The translations under genes and the position numbers were made by a program. The notes below the pieces were generated by a model, which was not told the DNA's origin, searched no databases, and saw only the letters and a list, made by a program, of their open reading frames with translations. Below, piece after piece: positions 1-13,208 of a stretch of DNA of 13,208 nt; the first letter of the stretch is position 1, and every line of letters starts with the position of its first letter. The DNA lies in assembly GCA_022566435.1 (NCBI GenBank), contig JADFIX010000021.1, forward strand, positions 1 to 13,208, written 5' to 3'. The DNA comes from Planctomycetota bacterium. Its GTDB lineage: Bacteria > Planctomycetota > Phycisphaerae > UBA1845.

Positions 1-194
1 CGCTTAGCGATCGAGACCACGTCGGCAACGTGGTCGGAATGTCCGTGCGAGACAAGAATGTAATCCGCTGAAACGTCGTCGGCCTTGACGGGGGCCGTGG
101 GCGAATCGTTCAAAAAGGGATCCAGCAAAATCGTGTTTTCTTTCGCCGTGATCGACCAACTGCCGTGTCCAAGCCACGTAAGTTCTGTTGCCAT
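1..194 (-). CDS. UPF0173-type metal-dependent hydrolase (MBL fold), N-terminal part
   Basis: Only the first 64 codons are inside the window; the gene runs off the left edge. The start is ATG at 194, preceded by a GAGGAG ribosome binding site. The protein opens with a short beta-strand segment containing WLGHGSW, then LLDPFLND, and the metal-binding motif HGHSDHVAD (HxHxDH) at about residues 50-58. This order is typical of the UPF0173 / YtkL-like branch of the metallo-beta-lactamase superfamily, cytoplasmic hydrolases of about 225-240 aa whose natural substrate is not established. It lies 14 nt downstream of the glucose-6-phosphate isomerase stop on the same strand, so the two were probably co-transcribed. 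The family call is firm; the substrate is unknown. Confidence 0.87.
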   Translation of the reverse strand, partial: MATELTWLGHGSWSITAKENTILLDPFLNDSPTAPVKADDVSADYILVSHGHSDHVADVVSIAK

Positions 195-208
195 GGTTTT
201 GCTCCTCG

Positions 209-1300
209 CTAGGAACCGCGTAAAATTGCGTTCATCTTCTCTTTGTAGGCGTTGACGCCTGGCTGTCCGTAGGGATTGGTTCCGACGAGGCGCCCTTCAA
301 CGACCGTGGCGAGCATAAGCATCTGGAAAAGTTGTCCCATGGACGCCTCGTCCAATCGTGGTAAATGCAAGTTGGCTGTGGGCCTTCGGGCTTGGGTGTA
401 TGCCTCGTTGGTTCCTCGGAGCGCTGCTTGCATGATGTCGGGCAGTGCCTTGCCGGCCAACGCGTTGAGCTGATCCTGGTCGAATTGCGAATGTCCCACC
501 GTGACACGGTCGCATCTCGGATTATCGACGATGAGGTTCGTGATCAGTTTGTCGCGGCGGCCTTCCTGATGCTGCTGACCGCGAGAGTGTAGGTCGCGGG
601 TGTTGACGCTGGTGAGCGGTGTGGCGCCGCGCTGGTCTTTGCCAAGGCTTTCGGCCAACAGTTGATCGTACCACAGGCCGGTCGCTTCCAGTCCTTTTCC
701 CCATGTCGACAAGACACGAATCGTGGCGCCTCTATTTCGTTCCATCAAGTGGCACGCGGCGACGAAATCCAGCACGGTGTTGCTTCCGGGCTCGGCGGAG
801 ATGAAGTGTGCGTTCATTGCTTCGGCACCTTCCAAGAGCCTCACAACGTCGAGGCCCAAAATGGCAGCCGGCAACAATCCCACGGCAGAAAAAATCGAAA
901 ATCGCCCCCCTACCCCGTTGGGAATCGTGAAAATATCCTGGCAACCTAATGCGTTGGCAAGAGTCCGCAATCGACCGTCGGGTCCGGTGACCGGCACAAC
1001 GAGTTGTGCGCGTTGACTTGGATCGTCAGAGCACGTTTCGTCCAGCGCAGAGAGAAACGTCCGAAAAGCTACGGCCGTCTCCAACGTACCACCGCTTTTG
1101 CTGATCACCACGATCGCCCAGCGCTGCTCCATTGTTTTAGGTGATCCCGAGAGTTTCACAAGGTCCAAGAGTCCCTGCACGGCGTCATTGTCGACGTTGT
1201 TGCCTTCGAAATAGACTCGGGGTCTGCCTCCCCGCTCCGCACGATCCAGCTCATTGTGGTAGGGGTGGCAGCAACTTTCCATCAGGGCTCGGGCACCCAT
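209..1300 (-). CDS. pgi: Glucose-6-phosphate isomerase, 5'-truncated
   Basis: Phosphoglucose isomerase interconverts glucose-6-phosphate and fructose-6-phosphate in the cytoplasm. The visible 363 residues cover the second SIS domain and much of the first: VYFEGNNVDND near residue 29, the sugar-phosphate loop SKSGGTLET at 67-75, the glycine-rich GVGGRFSIFSAVGLLP near 130, the catalytic-region segment HSRGQQHQEGRRDK near 237-250, and the C-terminal QPGVNAYK with the active-site Lys. Full-length family members have roughly 150-200 more N-terminal residues, including a GIGGS loop just before MGARAL. Here homology stops exactly at MGARAL: upstream codons read unrelated residues and reach an in-frame TAG near 1361, and ATG 1300 has no ribosome binding site. 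The gene is therefore broken by rearrangement or by a misassembly and is unlikely to be functional as it stands. Confidence 0.85.
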   Translation of the reverse strand: MGARALMESCCHPYHNELDRAERGGRPRVYFEGNNVDNDAVQGLLDLVKLSGSPKTMEQRWAIVVISKSGGTLETAVAFRTFLSALDETCSDDPSQRAQLVVPVTGPDGRLRTLANALGCQDIFTIPNGVGGRFSIFSAVGLLPAAILGLDVVRLLEGAEAMNAHFISAEPGSNTVLDFVAACHLMERNRGATIRVLSTWGKGLEATGLWYDQLLAESLGKDQRGATPLTSVNTRDLHSRGQQHQEGRRDKLITNLIVDNPRCDRVTVGHSQFDQDQLNALAGKALPDIMQAALRGTNEAYTQARRPTANLHLPRLDEASMGQLFQMLMLATVVEGRLVGTNPYGQPGVNAYKEKMNAILRGS

Positions 1301-1421
1301 TATGGGGGGGGCTTTCCCCGTCCATGCGGATTGCCGAGAATCGGGAAGCCCCGGGCCACCGCGCTAATAGTCGACGATTTTTGGGGGTCGAAACATGGAC
1401 TGAGAGGCCAAAAAAGGGGGG

Positions 1422-1449
1422 TTGACTTCGCTCTGGATCATGGTAAGAT
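1422..1449 (+). promoter_or_regulatory. Sigma-70-like promoter of the seven-gene operon
   Basis: A near-consensus -35 box TTGACT (1422-1427) is followed after 16 nt by TAAGAT (1444-1449) as a -10 candidate. It lies 32 nt upstream of the ATG at 1481, and it is the only good promoter-like pair seen between the pgi break and the operon. The -10 is a 4/6 match, so the exact element is tentative. Confidence 0.5.
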
Positions 1450-1457
1450 ATTCTTAC
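1443..1457. promoter_or_regulatory. Palindromic operator candidate overlapping the -10 box
   Basis: GTAAGA-TAT-TCTTAC is a perfect 6-bp inverted repeat with a 3-nt centre. It overlaps the proposed -10 element and the likely transcription start. Short palindromes of this size are typical sites for dimeric XRE/Cro-cI-type repressors, and an XRE protein is the second gene of this operon. Autoregulation, relieved by the adjacent ImmA/IrrE peptidase, is inferred and not shown. Confidence 0.45.
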
Positions 1458-1480
1458 TGGTCCGTAAGGAGGAGTCTCCA

Positions 1481-1783
1481 ATGACTCGACAAGAAGTGGA
1501 AGCCGCCGTGATTACCGCAATTACTGAAATCCAAGGGATTAGCGGAAGGGAGTGTCCCAAGATTACCGCCAAGACCATTCCGATTGGGGGCGTTCCAGGA
1601 TTCGACAGTCTCAACGGTCTCGAAGCGACGATTCTTATCGACAAGCGTCTTGGAATCGAAACGCCCGATGATGCGCGACTGTTCACGAATGAGACCGGCG
1701 AACGGGCAATTCCCATTGCCGAAATAGCGCAGCGCATCGTCGAGTTTATCGAAAGCCGCGAAGGGAAAGCGCATGTCAAGTGA
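1481..1783 (+). CDS. Acyl-carrier-protein-like protein (phosphopantetheine attachment DSL motif)
   Basis: A 100-aa protein with the size and order of an acyl carrier protein: helix 1 (residues about 3-17), a loop, then PGFDSLNGLEATILIDKRLGIE, in which Ser43 of DSL is the expected 4'-phosphopantetheine site at the start of helix 2, followed by TPDD and a final helix with IAEIAQRIVEFIE. The pattern DSL, L, LE, LGIE, PDD matches ACPs, although the helix-1 region is divergent and a 5-8 residue insertion (TNETGERAIP) precedes the last helix. The start ATG 1481 is chosen because AAGGAGGAG lies at 1466-1474; an upstream open frame exists but would cross the promoter. The 3' end overlaps the XRE gene by 11 nt. 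No fatty-acid or polyketide gene lies nearby, so its acyl partner is unknown. The family assignment rests on motif reading only. Confidence 0.7.
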   Translation: MTRQEVEAAVITAITEIQGISGRECPKITAKTIPIGGVPGFDSLNGLEATILIDKRLGIETPDDARLFTNETGERAIPIAEIAQRIVEFIESREGKAHVK

Positions 1784-2120
1784 ACCCAAGAAAGTGCGGA
1801 TGGCGATCGCCGCTCGATTGCGCATGGCGCGCGAATCCGCTGGGCTGTCCCAAGGGCAGGCCTCCAAGCTGATGGAAATGCACCGACCGACTGTGTCGGA
1901 AATCGCAGCCGGACGACGGCGGCTGGCGGCGGATGAGTTGGCACGGTTTGCTGACACTTACGGAGTAAGTGCCGCGTGGCTCATCGGGGAACACGACGCT
2001 GATGCGGATGATGTGAGTGACCGAATCAAGCTCGCAGCAAGGCAGCTAAGCAGCCTTAAGGATGAAGATCTCGACAAACTGATGCGTCTACTCCAGTCCA
2101 TGCGCGGAGCCAACAGATGA
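1773..2120 (+). CDS. XRE-family transcriptional regulator
   Basis: A 115-aa DNA-binding protein. Residues about 11-73 form a classical Cro/cI helix-turn-helix domain: RLRMARESAGLSQGQASKL, then MHRPTVSEIAAGRRRL as the recognition helix region, then LARFADTYGVSAAWLIGE. The C-terminal tail (about 74-115) is charged and helical, a plausible contact for the partner peptidase. It starts inside the ACP-like gene and overlaps the next gene by 4 nt (ATGA), so translation is coupled. XRE regulators encoded next to ImmA/IrrE peptidases are usually repressors cleaved or inactivated by the peptidase (as ImmR/ImmA of ICEBs1 or DdrO/IrrE of Deinococcus). I infer it represses the 1422 promoter through the palindrome at 1443-1457. 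Confidence 0.9.
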   Translation: MSSEPKKVRMAIAARLRMARESAGLSQGQASKLMEMHRPTVSEIAAGRRRLAADELARFADTYGVSAAWLIGEHDADADDVSDRIKLAARQLSSLKDEDLDKLMRLLQSMRGANR

Positions 2121-2992
2121 TCGCAACCTCTCGCATCGAGCTTGTGCGAAGTGCGATTACCCGGGCGCTGCGCGTTCGACGAGCGGCGAAAATCGAGTTG
2201 CAGGATGCCGTCTGTCCGTTTGATCTCGCGGAGAAGCGCGGAGTCGAAGTTCGCTTCCAATCGCTTGCGAGTTTCGATGGCATGCGAAGCGTCGACTCCG
2301 GCGCCTCCACGATCGTAGTTTCATCGCTTCGGCCGCCCGGTCGCAAAGCGTTCACATGCGCACACGAGCTTGGCCATGATGTTTTCGACCATGGCGTTCA
2401 GATTGACGAACTTGTGGAGAGTCGAGATACGCCACGGGAAGATGAGCCGGAGGAGATTCTCGCTCACGCGTTCGCGGGAATCCTCCTGATGCCGAAGTCG
2501 ACCGTCGAGCGTGGAATGGCGGTTCGTGGATGGCATCTGCGGTCATGTGGACCGCAAGAGATCTACTCGCTGGCGAGTTGGCTTGGGGTCGGGTACACCA
2601 CCCTGATATCGCATCTTCAATACGGATTGCGGTTGCTCGAAGTCAGTCGTGCCGACAAGTTGCGGAAAGTCCGGCTGCCACGGCTTCGCAAGGAGATTCT
2701 GGGCGAGGACTGCCCCAGTGAGCTTGTAATCGTGGACTCGCAGTGGTGTGGACGTCCAGTCGACATCCAAGTGGATGACATCGCGCTCATGCCTGCGGGC
2801 GGTCGCGCTGAGGGAAGCTGCATCGAGGCTGTTCCAGACGCAGCGGGCCGGGTTTTGGTCAGAGGTGTCACGCCCGGCATTGGTCGCTTGATCCTGCAAG
2901 AATCAGCCTGGGCCAGTTTCGTCCGGGTGTCTCGCCGCGAATATGTCGGTCGGAACAAGTACCGGCACCTTGAGGAAATGGATGATGACTAG
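2117..2992 (+). CDS. ImmA/IrrE-family metallopeptidase with C-terminal extension
   Basis: A 291-aa zinc peptidase-like protein. The zinc motif HELGH is at residues 83-87, and the third ligand is probably Glu113 in EEILAHAFAGILLMP, the usual E-x-x-A-x-x-F-A helix. These features define the ImmA/IrrE (COG2856) family, which cleaves or inactivates a cognate XRE repressor. The peptidase part ends near residue 185. The remaining ~105 residues look beta-rich, with a VDIQVDDIALMPAGG segment and PGIGRLILQESAWASFVRVSRREYVG; they do not match the minimal family and may sense or bind a ligand. The start ATG 2117 overlaps the XRE stop (ATGA) and has GGAG upstream. Its 3' end overlaps the next gene by 11 nt. 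Confidence 0.9.
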   Translation: MIATSRIELVRSAITRALRVRRAAKIELQDAVCPFDLAEKRGVEVRFQSLASFDGMRSVDSGASTIVVSSLRPPGRKAFTCAHELGHDVFDHGVQIDELVESRDTPREDEPEEILAHAFAGILLMPKSTVERGMAVRGWHLRSCGPQEIYSLASWLGVGYTTLISHLQYGLRLLEVSRADKLRKVRLPRLRKEILGEDCPSELVIVDSQWCGRPVDIQVDDIALMPAGGRAEGSCIEAVPDAAGRVLVRGVTPGIGRLILQESAWASFVRVSRREYVGRNKYRHLEEMDDD

Positions 2993-3818
2993 GCAGTTTG
3001 TGGTAACGGGGCATGACCTCTCCCATGTTTGGGCGGTTGCTTTTCTTGAGGCTTGGCGACCGCGTAAGATCGACATGGCTCCGTTGGTTGTCACGGTTAC
3101 AGGGCTCGGTGAGGAAGATGACCCAAGCGAGAACGGTACAATTCGAAAAGCCGTGGACGATTCACTCCTATCGCTCGGAACGGGGCTTAGCGTCAACAGG
3201 GTCGCCGGTACGATCTTCCCGGCAAGCCTGTGGAACCCGCATCGCCCGCGTCGAGAATTATTTGACCGGTTCGACCGGATTTGGCGCAAGGTAAAGAAGT
3301 GTCCGGCCAACCGGCGCGGCCACTACTTCAGACGTCTGACGCAATTCGGCGATGGGCGCCACCCGAATCAACTCGAGTACATCATCAAGACCTATCGCGG
3401 AAAGAACCACCGCCGGAGTGCGCTCCAGGCCGCCCTCCTTGACCCGGCACTCGACCACACCGATAGTCGCCAGCAGGGGTTTCCGTGCCTGCAACAGGTC
3501 GCGTTCACTCCACTTGGCGGCGGCGAGATGTGCGTCACAGGCTTCTATGGCATGCAGTACTTGTTCGAGCGCGCTTACGGCAACTACCTGGGGCTGTGCA
3601 GGCTTGGCCGATTCATGGCGCACGAGATGGGACTCAAGCTCACGCGGATGACTTGCATCGCTTCCGCGGGTACGCTTTGCGGTGGTAAGGTCCGGATGCG
3701 AGACCTCGCGCCGATGGCGGGCGTCGTGGAAGACGCCCTGCCAAATGGTGTCACGGTCGCGCCAAGCGGTGTTGGCTGCTCGCCGGGTCCTCGCGTGCAG
3801 ACGATGTGGATGTCTTGA
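2982..3818 (+). CDS. Divergent thymidylate-synthase-fold protein (A)
   Basis: A 278-aa protein that can be aligned by eye with ThyA. HRRSALQAALLDP (R144, R145) matches the SRRIIVSAWN arginine pair, FPCLQQVAFTP (P168-C169) matches the catalytic PCHAFFQFYV cysteine loop, and about 32 residues later YGNYLGL supplies an Asn (N201) at the place of the pyrimidine-binding Asn177. LGRFMAHEMGLKLTRM corresponds to the helix and strand that follow. The QRSxD motif carrying the phosphate-binding Arg166 is missing (it reads GFYGMQY). The C-terminal Val tail and much of the N-terminal cofactor region are not recognisable. I therefore expect a modified substrate or reaction rather than ordinary dTMP synthesis. 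Two tandem ATGs (2982, 2985) follow GAGGAA; either may be used. It overlaps the peptidase gene by 8-11 nt. The fold call is moderately secure; function is not known. Confidence 0.72.
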   Translation: MMTRQFVVTGHDLSHVWAVAFLEAWRPRKIDMAPLVVTVTGLGEEDDPSENGTIRKAVDDSLLSLGTGLSVNRVAGTIFPASLWNPHRPRRELFDRFDRIWRKVKKCPANRRGHYFRRLTQFGDGRHPNQLEYIIKTYRGKNHRRSALQAALLDPALDHTDSRQQGFPCLQQVAFTPLGGGEMCVTGFYGMQYLFERAYGNYLGLCRLGRFMAHEMGLKLTRMTCIASAGTLCGGKVRMRDLAPMAGVVEDALPNGVTVAPSGVGCSPGPRVQTMWMS

Positions 3819-3908
3819 CTCACGGGACGACCACGTTGGCTAAGGCAACGGGGGCGCGGGTTCCGAACCTTGCCCGCACACGACACATGGTACACGGAGG
3901 TAAACACT

Positions 3909-4550
3909 ATGGCATTCTGGAGCGCCCAAACACTCAGAGAGAAGCTCAAGCCCGATTCAATTATTCCAGGATATCAACCTGACCGCATCAAGTACGGAGC
4001 CTATGAATTGGGCCTAGGCGGAGAGACAGTCATTACTCCCGCCAGGCGGTGGCGCGCCACAAAGTTCTTGAAAGCGAAGGAGAAGATCGTCATACCGTCT
4101 GGACAAATGGCGATGTTGATCACAGAGGAGCAGGTCAACATTCCGTTGGCTGCCATGGCTTTCATTTCGATGAAGGCAGGCAAGAAGCTCGGGGGACTCA
4201 TCAATATCTCGGGCTTTCATGTCGATCCGGGCTTCAAAGGCAAACTCAAGTTTTCAGTCTACAACGCCGGAAGCAGGGATGCGGTCCTGGAGGTGGGAGA
4301 GCCGACTTTCCCGATCTGGTTTTGCAACCTCGATGACGAGACGGACACGCCATATAAAGGGGACCACCAGGGCCAGATGGGGCTGGGCCCAGAAGACGCG
4401 TCCCGTCTGCGTGGTGAAGTAGCGTCCCCTCAAGCATTGAGCGGCAAGATCAAGTCTCTCCAGCTTCAGCTGATGGGCATATACAGTTTGCTGGCCGCGA
4501 TAGTCATAGCGGTCGCGACTGAACTGTTCAAGAAATTCTTCGGGCAATGA
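3909..4550 (+). CDS. dCTP deaminase/dUTPase-fold protein, predicted non-catalytic, with C-terminal membrane helix
   Basis: A 213-aa protein. Residues about 25-142 follow the Dcd trimeric beta-fold: AYELGLGGE (for SVDLRLG), IPSGQMAMLITEEQVNIP, then GFHVDPGFKGKLKFSVYNAG (for HxIDPGWxGxxxLEFYNSG). In E. coli Dcd the catalytic Glu138 lies in LEFYN; the aligned residue here is Ser116, and the Ser111/Arg115 positions read as Ala and Lys. Deaminase activity is thus unlikely. After a polar linker (150-185), residues about 186-206 (LMGIYSLLAAIVIAVATEL) form one hydrophobic helix followed by KK, so the protein is probably tail-anchored in the inner membrane. ATG 3909 is chosen because GGAGG ends 8 nt upstream; an in-frame TTG at 3870 has no such support. 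A 90-nt gap with a small GC hairpin (3856-3877) precedes it. The stop overlaps the next start (ATGA). Confidence 0.8.
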   Translation: MAFWSAQTLREKLKPDSIIPGYQPDRIKYGAYELGLGGETVITPARRWRATKFLKAKEKIVIPSGQMAMLITEEQVNIPLAAMAFISMKAGKKLGGLINISGFHVDPGFKGKLKFSVYNAGSRDAVLEVGEPTFPIWFCNLDDETDTPYKGDHQGQMGLGPEDASRLRGEVASPQALSGKIKSLQLQLMGIYSLLAAIVIAVATELFKKFFGQ

Positions 4551-6274
4551 ACGTGCACGTTAGCGATTCGATAGAGCATCCGAACCCTAGGGCAAATGGC
4601 AGCGGAAGTCTCCTGGTGTTTGAAGGTCCGGACGGCGCGGGCAAGAGCGAGCTGGCGCGACGCCTTGTCAAGTCGCTCCGGGGCCGTGGCGTGGATTGCG
4701 AGCTGATCGCTTTTCCCGGAAACGAACCTCGGTCGCTCGGTCGGCATATCTACCGAATACATCATGATCCGACTTCGGTCGGGATCGACAAACTCCATGC
4801 CGCGAGTCTCCAGACCCTACACATCGCCGCCCACATTGACGAAATCGAAGGCCGAATTCTTCCGGCACTTCGGAAGGGGCGAATCGTTATCCTTGATCGG
4901 TTCTGGTGGTCTACTTGGGTGTACGGTCTCGCCGCCGGCATCAAACCGAGAGCTCTGCGCCATATGGTTCAACTTGAAGGCACATTCTGGGGTCGCATTC
5001 GTCCGGCGGCGGTGTTTCTAATTCATCGCGGAAGCGCTGATTGTTGCCCGAATACCGAAGAACGGCTACGGCTAGCGCGCGAGTACCACACTTTAGCCGA
5101 GCGGGAGCATGGAAAATATCCCATACACGTGCTCGACAATGACGGCACACTGTCAGCAGCGGTCAAGAAAATTATCAAGTGGGTTGACAAGCACGCGCCT
5201 ATCAACCGACCTCACGATAGCGGAGCAATGGACTCGCAGGCTCTTCTCGCGTTCAGCCGGCCACCGCCGCCCCGCAAGTCATGCACGGTCGTTTCTCGCC
5301 TGTCCCCCGCAAAGCCAACCGAGGTGTTCGACACGTATTGGCGTTTCGCCACCGAGCGACAAGCCGTCTTCTTCCGCCGTATTCATGGGGACGCGCCGCC
5401 GTGGACGGAGGACCCCGTGCTTTCCGAGTTCAAATTCACGAATGCGTATCGGGCTTCGGATCGTGTCAGCCAATATCTCATCCAAAATGTGATCTACGCC
5501 GGAGATCCAGCGGCCGAGGAGGTATTCTTCCGCACCATTCTGTTCAAGATTTTCAACAGGATCGACACATGGGAGCTGCTTATCGAGAAGTTGGGCGCAG
5601 TCACCTGGGAGGACTTCTCGTTCAAACGGTACGATCGTGTGCTGTCCAATGCGATTGACCGGGGAAGTCGAATCTACTCCGCAGCGTACATCATGCCTTC
5701 CGGTCGATCTGTTTTCGGCTATGCCCGGAAACACAAGACACACTTGAAGATCATCGAGCGAATGATGGAAGACGAGGTCGCGCGTCGGATCGAGGACGCC
5801 TCGTCGATGCAGGATGTGTTCGAGCTGCTCCTGTCATACCCGACCATCGGACCGTTCCTCGCGTACCAGTACGCGACTGACATTAACTACAGCGAAATGA
5901 CCAGCTTCGACGAGATGCATTTCGTTGTGCCTGGGCCCGGAGCCCTCGACGGCATTCGCAAGTGCTTCAGCGATTTGGGCGGTTTGAACGAGGTGGAGAT
6001 TATCAAGTTCGTTGCGGACCAGCAGGAGGACCATTTTGCTCGCCTAGGCCTCAGCTTTCAATCGTTATGGGGTCGCCGTCTACAGCTCATCGACTGCCAG
6101 AACCTCTTCTGTGAGGTGGGCAAGTACGCCCGTGTGGCCCATCCGGAAGTCGCGGGGCTCTCGGGTCGCACCCGAATCAAACAGAAGTACCGCCGTACGC
6201 CGAAGCCGATCGAGTTTTTCTATCCCCCCAAGTGGAACATCGATGTGGGGAGCATGGTGGGGGCGTCGCCGTGA
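4547..6274 (+). CDS. Thymidylate-kinase-like P-loop domain fused to 5-hmdU-DNA-kinase-type helical domain
   Basis: A 575-aa two-domain protein. Residues about 20-215 are a nucleoside-monophosphate-kinase-type P-loop domain of the thymidylate kinase sort: Walker A GPDGAGKS at 27-34, a DR-type motif ILDRFWWST at 115-123, and a helical lid segment NTEERLRLAREYHTLAE at 169-185. After a Pro-rich linker (235-258), residues about 259-565 match my recollection of the all-helical domain called HMUDK_hel, earlier alpha-glutamyl/putrescinyl-thymine pyrophosphorylase: FDTYWRFATERQAVFFRR, FKFTNAYRASDRVSQYL, GPFLAYQYATDINYS and VVPGPGALDGIRKCF. In phages this family phosphorylates or pyrophosphorylates 5-hydroxymethyl-dU in DNA, as a step to hypermodified thymines. 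The start overlaps the Dcd-like stop by 4 nt; the end overlaps the next gene by 4 nt. Family membership is fairly sure; whether DNA or a nucleotide is the substrate is not. Confidence 0.83.
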   Translation: MNVHVSDSIEHPNPRANGSGSLLVFEGPDGAGKSELARRLVKSLRGRGVDCELIAFPGNEPRSLGRHIYRIHHDPTSVGIDKLHAASLQTLHIAAHIDEIEGRILPALRKGRIVILDRFWWSTWVYGLAAGIKPRALRHMVQLEGTFWGRIRPAAVFLIHRGSADCCPNTEERLRLAREYHTLAEREHGKYPIHVLDNDGTLSAAVKKIIKWVDKHAPINRPHDSGAMDSQALLAFSRPPPPRKSCTVVSRLSPAKPTEVFDTYWRFATERQAVFFRRIHGDAPPWTEDPVLSEFKFTNAYRASDRVSQYLIQNVIYAGDPAAEEVFFRTILFKIFNRIDTWELLIEKLGAVTWEDFSFKRYDRVLSNAIDRGSRIYSAAYIMPSGRSVFGYARKHKTHLKIIERMMEDEVARRIEDASSMQDVFELLLSYPTIGPFLAYQYATDINYSEMTSFDEMHFVVPGPGALDGIRKCFSDLGGLNEVEIIKFVADQQEDHFARLGLSFQSLWGRRLQLIDCQNLFCEVGKYARVAHPEVAGLSGRTRIKQKYRRTPKPIEFFYPPKWNIDVGSMVGASP

Positions 6275-7311
6275 TCGAGCGATTCACGAGCGAGACGGCC
6301 AACGAGGTTTGGGAGCAAATCGCCACATCTTTTCGGCAAGGCGATGGCTGGCAGCTCCAGAACGGCCGGGGTGGCCGGACGAGCGAGCTGCTGCATGTAG
6401 CGTTGTCCATCGAGCGCCCGACCGAGCGCTGGGTCGTTTCGCGCAGCCCTGCGATTAATCCGGGTTTCGCACTGGCGGAAGTCGTTTGGATCGTGGCAGG
6501 ACGCGAAGATTCGAGTTTCGTCAACGCGTTCTATCCCGATCTGGCGAAATGGCAAGGGACCGGTCAGACCTATCACGGTGCGTATGGCCATCGGCTGAGG
6601 CGCAGATTTGGAATCGACCAGCTGGAGCGGGCTTATCTATCGCTGAAAGAGAACCCGGATTCGCGTCAGATAATTCTCCAACTGTGGGACGTAAGAGCCG
6701 ACCTGCCGGACGAGCACGGAAAAGAACGATCGCCGGACGTGCCATGCAATGTCATGTCTCTACTCAAGATCCGCGACGAGCATTTGGAATGGATGCAGAT
6801 CATGCGCAGTAACGATGTTTGGCGGGGGCTGCCGCACAACATCGTGCAGTTTACGTCATTGCAGGAAATCATGGCCGGATGGCTTGGCTGCAAGGTCGGC
6901 ACGTACAACCAAATCAGCGACAGTCTTCATGTCTACCTCGACAAGGAAGATGCGGCCAACATCCGGTCCTTCGCGCCTCTCGAAGCCGCGGCGAACACCG
7001 ACTCGATCGCGCTTCCGAAAGCCGACTCCGACTCCGCTTTTCAGGAACTCGCCTCGCGGGTTGATCGGATTATCGAAGTGGGATCGAATCCGCGAAACAT
7101 CTCAGATTTGGCCCGGTACCCGAGCGCTCCTGAGGCGATCCAAAACGTTCTCCGCGTCATGGCCGCTGAACTCGCGCGGCGCAAGCAATTGTTGGACCTT
7201 TCACAGGACCTCATGGCCGACTGCAGCAACCCGGCGCTGTCTCAACTGTGGGATCGCTGGTTCGAACGCTGTCACTCGAAAAACCGCGTTCAAAGTAGCC
7301 GGTCAGGCTGA
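6271..7311 (+). CDS. Thymidylate synthase / dUMP hydroxymethylase family protein (B)
   Basis: A 346-aa protein with clear ThyA-family signatures: RTSE at 36-39 (phosphate loop), AEVVWIVAG with Glu70 equivalent to E. coli Glu58, AYGHRLR at 104-110, NPDSRQIILQLWD at 128-140, the nucleophile in DVPCNVMSL (Cys159), MRSNDVWRGLPHNIVQF at 178-194 with the phosphate Arg179, Asp182 and the base-recognising Asn190, and DSLHVYLDK (His220, Tyr222). Asn at position 190 favours a uracil over a cytosine substrate. The second Arg of the RR pair is Gln. The family's usual C-terminal tail is replaced by a helical extension of about 110 residues (238-346). It could make dTMP or 5-hydroxymethyl-dUMP; phage base-modification clusters use the latter. 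GTG 6271 is chosen as start because GTGA overlaps the previous stop, as elsewhere in this operon. Last gene of the operon; no intrinsic terminator is obvious after it. Confidence 0.87.
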   Translation: MIERFTSETANEVWEQIATSFRQGDGWQLQNGRGGRTSELLHVALSIERPTERWVVSRSPAINPGFALAEVVWIVAGREDSSFVNAFYPDLAKWQGTGQTYHGAYGHRLRRRFGIDQLERAYLSLKENPDSRQIILQLWDVRADLPDEHGKERSPDVPCNVMSLLKIRDEHLEWMQIMRSNDVWRGLPHNIVQFTSLQEIMAGWLGCKVGTYNQISDSLHVYLDKEDAANIRSFAPLEAAANTDSIALPKADSDSAFQELASRVDRIIEVGSNPRNISDLARYPSAPEAIQNVLRVMAAELARRKQLLDLSQDLMADCSNPALSQLWDRWFERCHSKNRVQSSRSG

Positions 7312-7591
7312 TCGGCAACGATTGGGACCGTCCGGGTGCCACGCATGCTACCCGTTCTCCGCGCGGCACGCCGTATTTGTTTGCATCACGGAGCGATGAA
7401 ACGCATAGGCTTCTCCAACGAACGCGACATCGTATACGCCGATTTGCCCCACGTTCTCTATCGATTGACGGCCGTGACGTAGCAATCGAGTATCAATTTA
7501 CGCCCGACCACTCTTATTTCTTGGTAGCAATTGTCTCGAAATCGGTTACGATGCGCCCAAAGAGGATTTGGCCCAGGTAAGGAGACCTATC

Positions 7592-9031
7592 ATGTCCGCA
7601 CGACGACTCGTTTCGTTTGTCGCAATCCTATTCGTCTGTTTCGGCGGTTGTGCCCCGCGAACCACCGGCCCCGGAGACGGGGACGGAACTTGTGATCCCG
7701 ACGCACCCGAATGCGGCGCTGGGCTCGTTTGCGCCGCGGTTTTTGGGGCGGATGCGCGATGCCTGGCACCAGTCATCATTCGCGGCCACGTGTTGGCCCT
7801 TGTAGACGACAGTCCGATCGAGGGGGCACTGGTGCAGGCCGTGGATGTGAACGGCGCGGCCGTGGGGACGACGGCGGCGACGGATGCGGACGGCGCCTAC
7901 GAGCTGACCGTCCCGGCGGTGCGGGGCGACGAGGGTGAGCCGTTGGAAGGCGTCTACACCCTGCGCGTGCAGGCGGCGGGATCCCAGGAGTTTCCCACGG
8001 CCATTCGACCGGCGTTGCCGCTGGATGCGACCACCGCCGTCACTTCGGAAGATGAAGACCCATGGGTCATTGAAAATGCCCTCACGACGGTCAAGCTCAT
8101 CGCACTTCTCGGTGACACGAGCGCGCTCGGCTCCATTTCCGGTTCGATCGATGCCGAGAAGAACGCCGGAATTCTCGTCGTGGCGGAGACGACGGACGGT
8201 GCATTAACCGGTTTCAGCAACGGCGAGGGCGGGTACACGATTTTCAATGTACCGGCGGGCAGCTACACCGTGCGTGGGTTCGCGGCCGGCGTCCAAATTA
8301 CTGCCACGAATGTGTCTCTCGAAGCCGGCGAGGATGCGACCGGAATCGACTTGTCCGAGTCAGACAATCCGCTGAACACCGTGTCCGGCAACGTGCAGAT
8401 CGTCAACGCGCCCGGCGGATCGGCGACCAGTGTCGTGCTGGCCGTGGAGAGCACTTTTGTCGACGCCTCCGCCCGCGGTGCGGTCCCGCCCGGCCTGCGC
8501 GTGGGCGACATTGCCGGTGCGTTCACCCTGGAGGAGGTGCCGGACGGGCGGTATGTGGTTCTTGCGGCATTTGAAAACGACGGGTTGGTACGGGACCCTG
8601 ATCAGACCATCGGCGGGACGGCCATCGTGCGAATCGAGCTGCCGGACCCGGACGCCGGTAACGTCTTGGCGATATCCGAGGGCTTCAAAGTCACTGGAGC
8701 TTCGGCCACGGTCAGCCCGGGTTCGGACGGACCGGAAGAAATCTCGACTGCCACACCGCTCTTTGAGTGGGAAGACGATTCGAGCGAAGATGGCTACGAC
8801 ATCCGCGTATTGGACGCGTTCGGCAACGAGGTTTGGACGGAGCGAATCGACTCCGTCAGCGGATCCGAGACGGTGACCCTCTTGTACGCCGGCCCGCCGT
8901 TGGAGCCGGGAATCTTCTATCAGTTCCGCGTCACCTCCTTCCGCGACAAGAACGACGTGGAAACCGCGATCAGCATCACCGAAGATCTGAAAGGTGTTTT
9001 CTTCCTGGCGAGTGGTTCCTCAGTAGAATAA
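7592..9031 (+). CDS. Secreted lipoprotein with carboxypeptidase-regulatory-like and Fn3-like domains
   Basis: A 479-aa protein starting at ATG 7592 after TAAGGAGA. Residues 1-20 are a lipoprotein signal peptide: RR, a hydrophobic core, then CFGGC with the lipidated Cys at 20. A short Cys-rich linker follows (CDPDAPECGAGLVC). Three beta-sandwich repeats of the CarboxypepD_reg / SdrD-B type come next: one beginning IIRGHVLALVDDSPIEGALV, one with GSISGSIDAEKNAGILVVAE and GGYTIFNVPAGSYTVRGF, and one with NTVSGNVQIVNAPGG and GAFTLEEVPDGRYVVLAAF. The C-terminal ~110 residues (ATPLFEWEDDSSEDGYDIRVLD, then FYQFRVTSFRD) look like a fibronectin-III-like fold. The protein is acidic, extracytoplasmic and of structural or ligand-binding type; no enzyme motif was seen. 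A 280-nt spacer separates it from the operon upstream, so it is probably an independent unit. Confidence 0.85.
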   Translation: MSARRLVSFVAILFVCFGGCAPRTTGPGDGDGTCDPDAPECGAGLVCAAVFGADARCLAPVIIRGHVLALVDDSPIEGALVQAVDVNGAAVGTTAATDADGAYELTVPAVRGDEGEPLEGVYTLRVQAAGSQEFPTAIRPALPLDATTAVTSEDEDPWVIENALTTVKLIALLGDTSALGSISGSIDAEKNAGILVVAETTDGALTGFSNGEGGYTIFNVPAGSYTVRGFAAGVQITATNVSLEAGEDATGIDLSESDNPLNTVSGNVQIVNAPGGSATSVVLAVESTFVDASARGAVPPGLRVGDIAGAFTLEEVPDGRYVVLAAFENDGLVRDPDQTIGGTAIVRIELPDPDAGNVLAISEGFKVTGASATVSPGSDGPEEISTATPLFEWEDDSSEDGYDIRVLDAFGNEVWTERIDSVSGSETVTLLYAGPPLEPGIFYQFRVTSFRDKNDVETAISITEDLKGVFFLASGSSVE

Positions 9032-9855
9032 AGCGCCGAACATGCGTCACTCCGGGTCATCTGGTTGTCGGAACGGTGGAGGCCAAGGGCGACGCGGCAC
9101 ACCGTCTTGCGACCGGGGTTCGTGCGGCTGTCGCATGAATTGACGGGACTGATCACCAGTTGGCCCTTCGGCTTTTGACCTAGTTCGGACGCCCTTTCGA
9201 GTCGCTCGCACCGTCCGTGACTGCGCAGGTGCCTCGCACGCTTCCCATTCCGTGCACGGACGCGCTAATGGTCTGCGTCTTTGGCTGATGAAGCGCAGCG
9301 GGGCCTTCAGCACCACATATTGACCTATTCTCGGCACGAAGCGCCAAACGCCGCTTGGAATAACGGGAGATTTGCCGGAATTCCGGATACGATTGCGGGA
9401 AAGCACCTGTTCCGCGACGAATCGGGCATGCCAAACGATATTTCGCAAGCTAATTGACACGGGCATCGGTCTGCCGACAATACCGGCGAACCGAGGGCGT
9501 GGTACGTGCGAGTTGTCGTGCGACGGAGGCCCCTGAGATCAGGATTCGTGCGGTTGCAACAGCAGTCCGCTTGGCGGGCGGATGGTTTCGCCTTTCGTGA
9601 TAAGAATAGGTGAGACGTCGCGCGGCGTCCTTTTCTATCCCCTCATGCGGCTGGCGTGGCGCGCGCCGCTGAGCGTTTGAACTCGAGATTTACGTGGTCG
9701 CGATCGGCCTCCGGTCGAATGTGTCTACGTACCGAATCAAAGATGAACTAAGCGAAGTTTGCGGGGCGCGGCTGCGGCGTCTTGTGCCGTTGAGAATCCG
9801 CGATTACCGCAAACAAAGTCACTGGGAAATTTCATGCGAATGGAAGGAGTTTTGA
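9032..9855. other. Long intergenic region without a convincing gene
   Basis: Across 824 nt I see no reading frame with a ribosome binding site, a recognisable motif or protein-like composition. Open frames on the minus strand (for example 9047-9466) are Arg/Pro-rich and look like chance frames in GC-rich DNA. A small GC inverted repeat followed by CTTTTCT lies near 9613-9634 and could be a weak terminator. The region could be decayed sequence or could hold an unrecognised RNA; nothing specific supports either. Confidence 0.5.
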
Positions 9856-10539
9856 ATGCGTAACGTAGCGATGTTTCTACTTGGGGTCGCAGTCTTGATG
9901 GGCACAACCGGTTGTCCGCCGCCCGCGCCACCTGCCGCCGCCATCTTGGCGGGAGACTGGACGGGAACGGATGCTAACGGTGTGGTCGTCACCGTGACAT
10001 TCAACGCCGACGGCATCGTCGTATCCATTACAAGTGAGGACGGGGCCAGCGCCGAAGTCTCCAACTCTACAACCGACTTGGACGGCAGCGATGTCACGAT
10101 CGTTATCGGGGGGCGTACCTTCTCCGGGACGCTCAGCGACGATGAGAACACGATTACCGGCACGATTGAGCAAGAGATCACCGCGGGCGGTGGCGATGTC
10201 GTGATCACGATTCCGGCCGGCGACTTCGCAATCGATCGGGTCGACCTCTGCACCGGCAATACTTGCGACGACGGTGATGCTTGCAACGGCGTCGAGACCT
10301 GCGATGCCGAAACCGGCGATTGCGTCGATGGCGACCCTGTAGTATGCGACGTAGAGGGTGAGACCTGTGTCGACGGCGTATGTGGCCCCCCGGATCTGTG
10401 CGAAGGCAACACCTGCGACGACGGTGATGCCTGCAACGGCGTGGAGACGTGCGATGGAGAGACCGGCGATTGCGTCGCCGGCGATCCTGTTGTCTGCGAC
10501 GTAGAAGGCGAAACCTGTGTAGACGGAGAATGTGTCTAG
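9856..10539 (+). CDS. Lipoprotein with tandem cysteine-rich repeats
   Basis: A 227-aa protein starting at ATG 9856 after AAGGAG. The signal peptide ends in GTTGC with the lipidated Cys at 20, followed by a Pro-rich stretch. Residues about 30-125 are a beta-rich domain (AILAGDWTGTDANGVVVTVTF, GGRTFSGTLSDDENTITGTI) resembling lipocalin-like META or DUF-type beta-barrels of secreted planctomycete proteins. Residues about 130-226 are two 47-residue repeats, each with eight Cys at the same spacing (C-x4-C-x5-C-x5-C-x6-C-x7-C-x6-C-x4-C), very acidic and presumably disulfide-bonded. Such GNTCDDGDACNG units recur in planctomycete and myxobacterial surface proteins. The stop TAG at 10537 falls at the junction to a third, decayed repeat. 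An intrinsic terminator lies 57 nt downstream. Function unknown. Confidence 0.85.
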   Translation: MRNVAMFLLGVAVLMGTTGCPPPAPPAAAILAGDWTGTDANGVVVTVTFNADGIVVSITSEDGASAEVSNSTTDLDGSDVTIVIGGRTFSGTLSDDENTITGTIEQEITAGGGDVVITIPAGDFAIDRVDLCTGNTCDDGDACNGVETCDAETGDCVDGDPVVCDVEGETCVDGVCGPPDLCEGNTCDDGDACNGVETCDGETGDCVAGDPVVCDVEGETCVDGECV

Positions 10540-10582
10540 ACCGATCCGCGCGCAGGCATCACCTGCGCACGACAGTGCTGGT
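10243..10582 (+). repeat. 150-bp-period tandem repeat: two intact copies and one decayed copy
   Basis: Copy 1 spans 10243-10383 and copy 2 spans 10393-10533, each 141 nt coding plus a 9-nt linker. The copies are nearly identical at DNA level, with mostly synonymous differences. A third partial copy begins at 10543, exactly 150 nt after copy 2: GATCcgcGCGcAGGCAtCACCTGCG aligns with GATCtgtGCGaAGGCAaCACCTGCG, and the likeness fades near 10582. The linker between copies 2 and 3 contains the TAG stop. Confidence 0.85.
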
Positions 10583-10596
10583 AGAATGTCAATGGA

Positions 10597-10637
10597 CACG
10601 GCGTGCGCCTCTCGCCAGGCGCGCGCCGTGTTTTTTT
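10597..10637 (+). terminator. Rho-independent terminator
   Basis: The arm CACGGCGTGCGC (10597-10608) pairs with GCGCGCGCCGTG (10619-10630), 12 pairs including one G-T, across a 10-nt loop. Seven T follow directly (10631-10637). It sits 57 nt after the repeat lipoprotein stop and should end that transcript. Confidence 0.92.
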
Positions 10638-10685
10638 ATTTGCTGGAATATCGTCAATTGCAAAATGCCGGCCGTCAGGAAAGCC

Positions 10686-10720
10686 TCGGTGATTCGTGGC
10701 ATCTTGCCAGGAATCACCGA
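10686..10720. repeat. Long perfect inverted repeat (hairpin) upstream of the DinB-fold gene
   Basis: TCGGTGATTC (10686-10695) and GAATCACCGA (10711-10720) are perfect 10-bp complements. Inside, after one G/G mismatch, TGGC and GCCA pair across an ATCTT loop. No T-run follows on either strand, so it is not a standard terminator. It lies 50 nt before the next start and could be an mRNA leader hairpin, a protein site or a small dispersed repeat. Confidence 0.6.
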
Positions 10721-10769
10721 ACGGACTACGCTCGAGTTGTGACGTCACCATGATGTAAGCGAGGAAACC

Positions 10770-11285
10770 ATGGCGAAGTGGCCCTGGATCGATCGCAAGT
10801 TCAGCTTCGACTATCCGGCGTCGAAGTTTCCCGATTTGCTTGAGCGCTGGCGCGGCACGCCCGCCCGACTGGAGGAGCGTGTAGCTGGCCTGTCACGAGA
10901 CGTGCTAACTCGTCGCCCGGGAGACGGCTGGTCGATTCAGGAAAACGTCGGTCATCTTCTCGATCTCGAATACCTGCCCGCGGAGAGAATCGAACAGATC
11001 CTGAACGGTGAAGCGGAACTCATCGCGGCCGACATGACCAACCGCAAGACCCACGAAGCGAGTCACAACGACGCCAAAATAGAAGACCTTCTGAGTGCGT
11101 TTCGTGCCGCACGGCTCGAGACGGTGCGTCGTTTGGAATCATTGGAGGAGGCCGACTGGGCGCGCTCCGCGCTTCATCCGCGTCTGAAACAACCGATGCG
11201 CATCGTGGACATCATTTATTTTGACAGCGAACACGACGACTACCACCTCGGCCGAATCGGCGAGCTAGTTCGCGCGCTGACGTGA
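10770..11285 (+). CDS. DinB-family (DinB_2-like) protein
   Basis: A 171-aa protein starting at ATG 10770 after GAGGAAACC. It has the four-helix DinB/YfiT-like layout: an N-terminal helix with LLERWRGTPARLEERVAGL, then DGWSIQENVGHLLDLE with His62, a middle helix with DLLSAFRAARLETVRRLESL, and the C-terminal EHDDYHLGRIGEL. His62, His155 and His159 are the usual triad for a divalent metal. Family members include bacillithiol- or mycothiol-dependent transferases and many uncharacterised stress-related hydrolases; nothing here picks one. It appears to be a single-gene unit and is convergent with the membrane protein gene beyond it. Confidence 0.87.
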   Translation: MAKWPWIDRKFSFDYPASKFPDLLERWRGTPARLEERVAGLSRDVLTRRPGDGWSIQENVGHLLDLEYLPAERIEQILNGEAELIAADMTNRKTHEASHNDAKIEDLLSAFRAARLETVRRLESLEEADWARSALHPRLKQPMRIVDIIYFDSEHDDYHLGRIGELVRALT

Positions 11286-11335
11286 TCCAATTCCGCCGTT
11301 CGGATTCTAGAAAGTAGTACAAAATTTCGGCCTTC

Positions 11336-12187
11336 TTACTGAACCAAAGAGTTACGGCGCCGTAAGTTTGTGTAAGCGCGCGTCTTGAGATCATAGAGAC
11401 CAATGCCGACAAGGACCGCCAGATTTGCGAACAACAGCGGCGCGAAGACGGGCGGTCCGAAGAGGATGTTTTCACGCAGTAGCGAACTGACGCCGCCGGA
11501 GATGCCGTGCAGATGCAGCAAGAAACCCAGCGCACCGACGACAGCTTGGGCGAGCGCGAGATACAGGCACACACCAAGGAAGGATCCATTGAGCGGCATG
11601 AAAACCGCCAAAGCAAAAAACGATACGGCATAAGCGCTACTGACGACGGGAATCCACTCCGTAAGCAGAAAGAATCCGTTTTGTGCGTGATCACACAGCG
11701 AAAGAATGAAGTTGCCGACAAATCCGCCAAGGCCGAACAGCACGACCCATCGGCCCCAAGCCGTGTCGTTCGCGTCGACCATACGATTCATAAGAATCAG
11801 GAACCCCAACCCCGCATAGGCGAGCGGGGCAGCGAACGGCGCCGTGTACACCAGGCTATGGATCGTTTGGGCTGCGAAGAATTGGCTTTTCAGATGCAGT
11901 ATCATCCCGCCTATGCCGACCGCGATTGCTACCCAACCCGTGAGGAGCCCGAGCCGGCGACCCGCCCCGCGGCCGAATTTCCATTCGGCGACGATGGCCA
12001 GCCCGAGTATGGGCGTTGCGGCCACCGAGAAAACAAACGGTACCCATTCGAGAGGATGTGCGAAGTTGTTGACGCTGTGGGCGATGTAGATGTCGAGCGC
12101 CAAGAAGGCTATGTTGGCGAGCACGAAGAGATCGACGACCAGCCGTCGCCGGCGAGACCAAGTTTGCAAGGAAAGATCCCAGCTCAT
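11336..12187 (-). CDS. Integral membrane protein, about eight transmembrane helices
   Basis: A 283-aa protein. Hydrophobic helices are visible at about residues 16-37, 48-69, 79-99, 109-133, 147-167, 175-197, 203-225 and 247-267, with Arg-rich cytoplasmic ends (SRRRR at 11-15, LRRRN near the C-terminus) that suggest both termini face the cytoplasm. Several His lie in or near helices (His37, His44, His98, His110, His167, His225, His227), which could serve as haem or quinone-site ligands, but no family signature was recognised. The start ATG overlaps the cytochrome stop by 4 nt (ATGA), with GAGG upstream, so the two are translationally coupled. I infer a membrane partner that links the periplasmic multihaem cytochrome to the quinone pool; this role is not demonstrated. 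Confidence 0.8.
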   Translation of the reverse strand: MSWDLSLQTWSRRRRLVVDLFVLANIAFLALDIYIAHSVNNFAHPLEWVPFVFSVAATPILGLAIVAEWKFGRGAGRRLGLLTGWVAIAVGIGGMILHLKSQFFAAQTIHSLVYTAPFAAPLAYAGLGFLILMNRMVDANDTAWGRWVVLFGLGGFVGNFILSLCDHAQNGFFLLTEWIPVVSSAYAVSFFALAVFMPLNGSFLGVCLYLALAQAVVGALGFLLHLHGISGGVSSLLRENILFGPPVFAPLLFANLAVLVGIGLYDLKTRAYTNLRRRNSLVQ

Positions 12188-13208
12188 TTCTCGCCTCGAA
12201 GTTCGGCTGCCATCTCCTCCAGTTCCGTCATCTTTAGCAACAGCTCATAGTTTCCGTGCCATTGCACGAAGTCCGCGCCGCCCATGAATGCGCCATGCTT
12301 GGCGGTGCGGCCGTAATAGTGCCAGAGATCGAAGATCAAGAAGTCGATCGGTTCGTCGAACGGCTCAGGGGTAAGGTGCCCCTCGTCGCGAAGCGCTTTC
12401 ACCAAATCGAGGGCAGCCTGTACTTTTTGGTTCGTGGAATGCACCACGATTTCCGCGTCTTCATAGAATTCATCAACTTGCGAGGATGCGTGACAGGTCA
12501 TGCAAATGTCCTGCATGTTTGTTTGGCCGGTGTCGTATGTGGGGCGTTTCTTGGAAACAGGTGCAAAAAGCCACCAAGAAAGTCGTTCCGTGACGTCGTG
12601 CGTAACGCGTTGCTCTTCCAACCCGCTCATGTGGCACGTGGAACAGCTTGGTACCGGTATGTCTCGTGTGGTCAGCGACTTCGCCGGCGCATTCAGATTC
12701 ATCCGGCTCTTATAATGGGCCCATAGAATTCCGTGTTTCGATTCGTTGAAGATTTCTAGCTGGGAGTGATCCGGACCCATGTGGCACTGCCCGCAAGTCT
12801 CCGGTTGCCTGGCAAGCGCGACCGACGCCGCGTGCCGGGAATGGCATTGCGTACACGAGCCGATGCTGCCATCCGAGTTCGGCTGACCGATGTTGTGGCA
12901 GGCGAGGCAACCGAGATCAAGCACGCCTTCGCCCTCGCGAATGGCAAGCGCGTTCGCAGGTCGACGAACTGCGCCCGGGTGGTACTTCTCCGCCGCTACG
13001 ATTTGCGCTTCGGTGAAGTCCTTCGCGCCCGCGACGGCCGCGAACGCCGGCGCGGCGTGACGGCTTCGCAAGAACTCCTCGTACTCCGTCTGGTGGCATT
13101 GGCGACAGTTTAGCGCGGTCATCTCAGCGGCCAGCGTAAATCCCGAATGAGCTATGGGCTCCTGCCCGTCGACCGGTTGATGGCAATCCAAGCACGTCAC
13201 GCCTTTGC
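12184..13208 (-). CDS. Multihaem cytochrome c, hydroxylamine-oxidoreductase-like (5' end outside window)
   Basis: The open frame runs off the right edge; the GTG at 13200 sits inside a KGVTCLDCH haem motif and is not the real start. The 338+ visible residues carry seven CxxCH motifs (CLDCH, CRQCH, CLACH, CTQCH, CGQCH, CSTCH, CMTCH; Cys at about 3, 32, 98, 116, 136, 186 and 233). The Cys-rich part is followed by a haem-free C-terminal helical region with LWHYYGRTAKHGAFMGGADFVQWHGNYELL. This order fits octahaem HAO-like cytochromes, with the first haem and the signal peptide probably beyond the window. Family members oxidise hydroxylamine or hydrazine, or reduce NO or nitrite; which one depends on a cross-linking Tyr near the C-terminus that I cannot place with certainty. 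Expected location is the periplasm. Coupled downstream to a membrane protein. Confidence 0.9.
   Translation of the reverse strand, partial: KGVTCLDCHQPVDGQEPIAHSGFTLAAEMTALNCRQCHQTEYEEFLRSRHAAPAFAAVAGAKDFTEAQIVAAEKYHPGAVRRPANALAIREGEGVLDLGCLACHNIGQPNSDGSIGSCTQCHSRHAASVALARQPETCGQCHMGPDHSQLEIFNESKHGILWAHYKSRMNLNAPAKSLTTRDIPVPSCSTCHMSGLEEQRVTHDVTERLSWWLFAPVSKKRPTYDTGQTNMQDICMTCHASSQVDEFYEDAEIVVHSTNQKVQAALDLVKALRDEGHLTPEPFDEPIDFLIFDLWHYYGRTAKHGAFMGGADFVQWHGNYELLLKMTELEEMAAELRGEK

Follow-up and report, generated by a model that had tools for sequence, protein, structure and literature searches.

A widespread seven-gene operon joining a carrier protein, thymidylate-type enzymes and a repressor-protease pair, with a candidate role in anti-phage conflict

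The DNA analysed here (the window) is a 13,208-nt stretch, positions 1 to 13,208 of the forward strand of contig JADFIX010000021.1 (C875 in our numbering) from the Planctomycetota assembly GCA_022566435.1, which comprises 5.0 Mb in 939 contigs and is 64% complete. Between positions 1422 and 7311 it carries a promoter and a seven-gene operon encoding, in order, a protein resembling an acyl carrier protein (ACP), an XRE-family helix-turn-helix (HTH) protein, an ImmA/IrrE metalloprotease (IrrE), a divergent thymidylate-synthase (TS) homologue (TSA), a protein with the dCTP-deaminase fold (DCD), a thymidylate-kinase (TMK) domain fused to PF18723, and a second TS-type protein (TSB). The gene set, its coupling and recurrence, the operator-like site, the identity of the carrier protein (by sequence and model), and the catalytic residues kept or lost were all established computationally. 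The operon is a real, widespread module. Its most likely place is among the nucleotide-centred conflict systems, of which it would be a variant distinguished by its carrier protein, its divergent TS and its conserved operator.

All seven open reading frames (ORFs) lie on the + strand from 1481 to 7311, overlapping or almost touching. The ACP and XRE genes overlap by 11 nt, XRE and IrrE by 4 nt, and IrrE and TSA by 8 or 11 nt (ATG at 2985 or 2982), followed by a 90-nt gap between TSA and DCD and by overlaps of 4 nt at both the DCD/TMK-PF18723 and the TMK-PF18723/TSB junctions. These ORF coordinates, together with domain scans, confirm the seven coupled genes and the overlaps given in a preliminary description made from the sequence alone. 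The features are as follows.

1422 to 1427, + strand: -35-like TTGACT of the operon promoter, read directly
1443 to 1457, + strand: putative XRE operator, exact GTAAG-N5-CTTAC, GTAAGATATTCTTAC, overlapping the -10-like TAAGAT (1444-1449)
1464 to 1468, + strand: third half-site, GTAAG, overlapping the ribosome-binding site
1481 to 1783, + strand: carrier protein (ACP-like, 100 aa) with putative attachment Ser43; invariant Ser, ACP-like model, neighbouring AcpS or phosphopantetheinyl transferase (PPTase) genes
1773 to 2120, + strand: XRE/Cro-C1 HTH protein, putative repressor; HTH_31 3e-13, PADLOC capH 1e-13
2117 to 2992, + strand: ImmA/IrrE metalloprotease, HELGH at residues 83-87, with an extra C-terminal region; Peptidase_M78 8e-14
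2985 to 3818, + strand: TSA, divergent TS homologue (Cys168, Asn200); TIGR03283 3e-8
3909 to 4550, + strand: DCD-fold protein with a C-terminal hydrophobic helix from about residue 191; PF22769 7e-10
4547 to 6274, + strand: TMK domain (P-loop GPDGAGKS) fused to PF18723 (HMUDK_hel); Thymidylate_kin 9e-14, PF18723 2e-113
6271 to 7311, + strand: TSB, TS-type pyrimidine hydroxymethylase-like (Cys159, RSND 179-182, Asn190, His220); PF00303 6.5e-20, PHROG 5131 8e-60

Operator-like site and repressor-protease pair

The putative operator is the sole match to its pattern in the window at up to one mismatch, with 0.07 expected. Across the 43 core loci defined below (numbered with the prefix L), an operator-like motif stands near the ACP gene start in 30 at up to one mismatch, 20 of them exact, against a background of one exact and two one-mismatch sites in 446,017 bases, the remainder of the first 24 loci. 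Of 31 loci, 21 have a TTGAC no more than 30 bases upstream of the operator, and 25 have GTAA at a spacing similar to that of the third half-site. The 13 core loci with no such operator are eight variants with a C1 peptidase gene, some of which carry other repeats upstream when inspected by eye, the two Streptomyces plasmids L026 and L041, and L007, L043 and L069. An operator conserved in different phyla speaks for a cassette that travels whole and brings its own regulation. A 26-base operator pattern matched 85 viral stretches, and those examined as loci had no ACP, IrrE, TSA or PF18723 by profile.

XRE presumably binds the GTAAG-N5-CTTAC site. The adjacency of an HTH protein and an HExxH protease is that of XRE-ImmA/IrrE switches; HExxH is present in all 22 IrrE family members of at least 230 aa, and the best PADLOC matches of the pair are capH (1e-13) for XRE and capP (1e-17) for IrrE. 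XRE-ImmA/IrrE pairs and CapH-CapP of CBASS both function as HTH-protease switches. The operon shares the HTH protein and the HExxH protease with them, whereas the operator and the carrier protein are particular to it. No CD-NTase was found among the seven proteins with Pfam and PADLOC at E values up to 1, so the cyclase that CBASS requires is absent from the set.

Recurrence, variants and mobility

A locus was counted as core when XRE, IrrE and TSA lie near one another on the same strand, and the C1-peptidase variant is included even though the peptidase gene sits between IrrE and TSA. Including the window, 43 loci have this core, from at least nine bacterial phyla, plasmids, two viral contigs and one archaeon. 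The duplicate short loci L029-L034 and L063-L066 were excluded from this number, and the near-identical L082-L084, which inflate the counts, were represented by one locus in the flank comparison described below. The genome scan yielded 20 loci, the nearest of which are in metagenome-assembled genomes (MAGs) of Phycisphaerae with 79-80% identity in the TMK-PF18723 protein, and plasmid searches added more, 12 of the 43 core loci being on plasmids. Because the same gene order is found in other phyla, the arrangement is not due to chance. Profile searches and gene neighbourhoods, the check proposed in the preliminary description, therefore bear out its view of a host-borne set in which a repressor-protease pair accompanies pyrimidine-nucleotide enzyme families, sometimes near integrases and adjoining defence genes.

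The set is sporadic within phyla. PF18723 was recovered from 7 of 343 genomes in the host phylum (including the genome already known) and, with the starting genome included in each count, from 14 of 292 in the phylum of a cyanobacterium, 7 of 297 in that of the acidobacterium Chloracidobacterium, and 4 of 201 in that of a Dehalococcoidia MAG, one of the four falling under the cut-off. Of 30 survey loci fetched, the below-cut-off hit G1107 being left out, 14 have XRE, IrrE and TSA beside PF18723. One MAG in the survey phylum of the cyanobacterium (L005, G346) is titled Tatlockia, of the Legionellaceae, a name that looks wrong. Seven loci from that survey (L076-L079, L081, L092 and L093) have PF18723 with MazG_C and no ACP core, and in L077 a DUF1643 gene stands between the two.

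Around the core, the membership varies. Profile matches occur in 35 of the 43 loci for ACP, 39 for PF18723, 22 for TMK, 17 for TSB, 20 for MazG_C, 6 for radical SAM and 10 for AcpS, and in 21 for DCD, some of these being short dUTPase-like proteins. TSB, MazG and radical SAM are largely alternatives: among the 39 core loci with PF18723, 14 have TSB only, 14 MazG only, 6 radical SAM only, 3 TSB and MazG together, and 2 none of them, with TSB and MazG avoiding each other (Fisher p 0.008, uncorrected for relatedness). The radical SAM gene follows PF18723, in the place of TSB or MazG, in L010, L036, L043, L072 and L082-L084. The variant core reads ACP-like, XRE, IrrE, C1 peptidase, TSA in L037, L044, L090, L098, L099, L100 (an archaeal plasmid), L101 and L102, and is often accompanied by uracil-DNA glycosylase, MazG or DCD. 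The IrrE of L099 carries a fused chagasin (I42) domain (5e-9), which is an inhibitor of C1 peptidases, so that this operon encodes a protease together with its likely inhibitor; the C-terminus of the window-type IrrE gives a weak profile match to the chagasin-fused type (probability 16%). In three loci, genes of the system appear interrupted or decayed: PF18723 is broken into separate pieces in L016, about 3 kb stands between the parts of TSA in L074, and L013 has an in-frame stop.

On a tree of 77 PF18723 domains, several of them long rows, the 38 rows with the core require 11 changes of presence compared with a shuffled mean of 26; the core is thus clustered, yet often gained or lost. The window falls in a weakly supported clade of 31 rows (82/79), 28 of which have the core, which mixes Planctomycetota, Myxococcota, Bacteroidota, Chloroflexota, Armatimonadota, Acidobacteriota, Verrucomicrobiota, cyanobacteria and rhizobial plasmids, a mixture that fits horizontal transfer. 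Three named phage sequences fall outside a well-supported clade of 48 rows (98/87), and several viral contigs fall inside it.

These signs of mobility bear on whether the operon is only a fragment of a prophage or integrative element, its XRE-IrrE pair controlling the element itself. A sequence cluster present in 13 loci has an integrase as its longest example (L072), L004, L010 and L044 have integrases too, and two core copies share a viral contig with tail genes, at a distance of 0.55 kb in L043 and of about 5.8 kb in L044. Against this, the other 41 of the 43 core loci lie outside viral contigs, the enzyme genes are conserved together, and the operator stands at the operon's own promoter and accompanies it on chromosomes and plasmids. 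By context, the core is not a part of phage replication, and the two viral-contig copies look like cargo. We therefore reject a prophage fragment as the full account, a reading largely refuted by the recurrence of the core and one to which we give hardly any credence; of the 43 core loci, those two lie in viral contigs with flanking phage genes of the kind that the preliminary description had named as its refutation, which is therefore not borne out.

Genes with links to defence are among the neighbours. L009 has a ThsB-like TIR protein, SLATT and HsdM/HsdS, L006 has TIR and Nmad2, L011 HsdM/HsdS and L025 SIR2; other core loci adjoin an ABC-three-component system (L023), a caspase (L037), Shedu (L099) or CRISPR-Cas I-E (L026). 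In L040, CapV phospholipase and TIR genes stand beside PF18723 and MazG, but the core is missing. A controlled comparison, covering 119 of 141 proteins from the flanks and 109 of 144 from the controls, was only mildly positive.

Carrier protein and nucleotide enzymes

The first gene encodes an ACP-type carrier protein, as judged from sequence conservation and a structural model, and is putatively phosphopantetheinylated. The window copy has no Pfam match in a Pfam scan; a relative in L041 clears the cut-off of the Pfam PP-binding family (1.2e-7). The single invariant column in 16 aligned relatives is a Ser (Ser43 of the full ORF), mostly within an (F)DS motif, and this Ser is kept in 22 of 22 rows of a second alignment. 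Seven of the eight divergent variants have the DS motif, the Asp being lost in L090. AlphaFold2 predicts a confident helical bundle (pLDDT 89.6), and the invariant Ser opens a long helix, residues 39-53 of the piece modelled. Foldseek listed 50 PDB matches, and the titles of nearly all name a carrier protein or a complex known to contain one, although the E-values are weak (best 0.015 at probability 1.0, none at 0.001). In addition, 10 of the 43 core loci, among them loci in cyanobacteria and on rhizobial plasmids, have an AcpS-like (holo-ACP-synthase) gene no more than 9 kb away, and a PPTase is annotated at the archaeal copy, L100.

The two TS homologues differ in how far they have diverged. 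TSA is recognised solely by the remote NCBIfam TS model TIGR03283 (3e-8, 33 bits versus a cut-off of 175) and has no Pfam match, and a PDB sequence search with it found no TS. In its alignment, the Cys of FPC and the Asn of GNY are kept in 22 of 22 rows and the RSxD motif is absent. A TSA relative (L024), searched against 50,697 phage records, had no match at E 1e-5. The closest solved relative of TSB is the CMP 5-hydroxymethylase MilA (8e-24), the best TS scoring 3e-10, and the Cys of TSB is present in 14 of 14 rows, one row being a duplicate. By homology and retained residues, TSB appears hydroxymethylase-like, at a level where hydroxymethylase and methylase activity are not separable.

MilA, which we take to belong to the mildiomycin pathway, brings in the reading of the operon as a small nucleoside-antibiotic or secondary-metabolite cluster, in which a TS-type hydroxymethylase and a carrier protein would make a pyrimidine compound. 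The nearness of TSB to MilA among solved structures speaks for it, and an ACP with a PPTase is usual in secondary-metabolite clusters. We consider it highly improbable all the same: a sequence-cluster analysis, which is not an exhaustive annotation, brought no recurrent gene for adenylation, export or self-resistance to notice, and the operon, with its XRE-IrrE pair, has a broad and sporadic spread that takes in plasmids and viral contigs.

The preliminary description saw the sixth protein as a fusion of a TMK-like part and a 5-hydroxymethyl-dU DNA kinase. That two domains are fused holds, whereas PF18723 is not the kinase part, because the P-loop kinase domain is N-terminal; the A2 profile, searched against the PDB by sequence, matches essentially kinases and other P-loop proteins. 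The model of the PF18723 domain is helical, and its best fold matches are a phage 5-phosphomethyl-dU (5-PmdU) glycinyltransferase (PUGT of PaMx11, 8z2n) and DNA glycosylases, which is suggestive of a transferase- or glycosylase-like fold and led us to reject a kinase assignment. The protein has a large kindred: 7,954 of the 7,999 scored candidates are relatives, with both domains in all 120 listed. If the reading given here is true, it would offer a function for a large group of proteins at present annotated as thymidylate kinase or as "nucleotide kinase domain-containing protein". The same protein matches at least 500 phage records, the 40 listed doing so through the PF18723 part.

Such phage relatives raise the alternative that the operon hypermodifies thymines, or cytosines, in DNA, protecting its element or marking self. 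In two of three inspected phages (L104 and L105, not L106), a TS or hydroxymethylase gene lies within three genes of the PF18723 relative and DNA polymerase I within about 4 kb, and the best fold matches of PF18723 include a DNA-acting glycinyltransferase and DNA glycosylases. Phages M6 and ViI, and PaMx11 too, hypermodify thymidine, and have a TS-type hydroxymethylase and a PF18723/aGPT-Pplase-like domain, to which TSB and the PF18723 domain of the operon are candidate counterparts. The operon differs from them in residing mostly in chromosomes and plasmids and in having a switch, a carrier protein and TSA, whose relative has no counterpart in the phage records searched. Moreover, no restriction partner was seen recurring with the core, and a condition-dependent switch is ill suited to a marker. 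On balance, we regard DNA marking as unlikely.

The DCD protein shares the fold of the dCTP deaminase family (PF22769) and adds a hydrophobic C-terminal helix. Among 13 long rows, one of them a duplicate of the window, 12 have such a C-terminal stretch (KD19 above 2). The Dcd fold with a membrane helix noted in the preliminary description is thus retained, but the residues expected of a deaminase are not. At the positions of Ser111, Arg115 and Glu138, which we take to be the catalytic residues of E. coli Dcd, the window aligns Gly, Leu and Ser (Ser116 at position 138), and none of the 15 rows with a residue in the position-138 column, one row again being the window duplicate, has Glu. The E. 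coli Dcd chain used in the alignment, 1xs4, itself shows Ala at 138, and the solved chain 9ln0, also named dCTP deaminase, likewise lacks Glu there, which calls for caution. An active deaminase was rejected on the loss of these residues, and DCD looks catalytically dead from its aligned sequence.

This loss also weighs against the idea that the operon poisons nucleotide pools, either by making an abnormal dNTP for the phage polymerase or by stripping thymidine nucleotides from infected cells, with MazG tuning the pool. TMK, the MazG_C NTP pyrophosphohydrolase and uracil-DNA glycosylase do occur as alternative members, as this idea would have it, while the carrier protein and the neighbouring TIR and SLATT genes are left unexplained by it. 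We hold it to be a minority prospect.

A candidate nucleotide-centred conflict module

The leading explanation, to which we give an even chance, is that the operon is a self-contained, mobile, inducible conflict module, most likely anti-phage, working through a modified pyrimidine nucleotide. Sporadic recurrence across phyla, the mixed-phylum tree, the operator shared between phyla, the ACP with its AcpS genes, the fold match of PF18723, the nearness of TSB to a nucleotide hydroxymethylase, the defence neighbours, the cargo-like viral copies and the domains validated with DefensePredictor (PMC13092281) all count for it. Every reaction, trigger, signal and effector role in what follows is one that we infer. 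In the resting state, XRE on its operator would keep the operon low. Phage or DNA stress would then trigger IrrE, the HExxH protease, to remove XRE and so release the operon. TSB may attach a one-carbon unit to C5 of (d)UMP, with phosphorylation of the product by the TMK domain, and the PF18723 domain, similar in fold to the enzyme that adds glycine to 5-phosphomethyl-dU, may act on that methylene. The phosphopantetheine arm of ACP would supply or hold the added group, with TSA as its dedicated partner enzyme, and the product would either raise an alarm or act as a poison. For the window copy, DCD, a membrane-anchored and putatively dead deaminase, could be both receptor and effector of the product; elsewhere this part may fall to TIR, SLATT or other neighbouring genes.

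A more specific form of the conflict-module reading is a carrier-tethered nucleotide alarm, in which a group held by ACP is put on the C5 methylene of dUMP by the two TS homologues and the glycinyltransferase-fold enzyme and is read by the dead, membrane-anchored DCD or by TIR and SLATT partners. We think this form doubtful; if true, it would be a kind of signal not known before. In any case, the operon is a compact, testable module with its own operator, found across bacteria and in an archaeon, which joins a carrier protein, thymidylate-type enzymes and a protease switch. Should it make a modified pyrimidine nucleotide, this would be a new class of signal or antimetabolite in prokaryotic immunity.

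Nucleotide-centric conflict systems, in which nucleotide-modifying enzymes are coupled to TIR, SLATT and similar effectors, were reportedly set out by Burroughs et al. in 2015, a work cited in the DefensePredictor paper (its reference 59); to our knowledge, those systems do not include an ACP-XRE-IrrE-TSA core with its own operator. A literature search, with preprints and most subscription papers outside its scope, found no described system with this ACP core, an absence that is accordingly unproven. The preliminary description likewise knew of none with this exact gene set. The operon is not wholly undescribed in kind, however, since TS and 5-hydroxymethyluracil kinase domains have been newly validated in E. 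coli phage defence in the DefensePredictor work (PMC13092281, 2026), which also names aGPT-Pplase, MazG, MazG-C and dUTPase among its predicted defence domains. The systems of that paper share families with the operon (TS, nucleotide kinase, 5-hmdU DNA kinase, MazG and dUTPase), some of them linked to defence by plating. The likeness lies in domain families, and the main text of that paper has no occurrence of "acyl carrier" or "irre" (PMC13092281). This validation is the strongest outside support for the conflict-module reading and limits the claim to novelty.

A search of E. coli DNA with one Acinetobacter relative found nothing. In an E. coli IncHI1B plasmid (L097, 6834-9765), a metallophosphoesterase, a hypothetical protein, MazG and a TSB-like thymidylate synthase stand in a row. 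The ACP core is missing there, and the group may represent a further member of the wider class. A Leptospira interrogans plasmid (L103) has a TSB-like gene near an ImmA/IrrE gene. Downstream in the window, the ORF at 9856-10539 has a repeated Cys-rich motif, CDDGDACNGVETCD, and probably encodes a surface protein that is not related to the operon.

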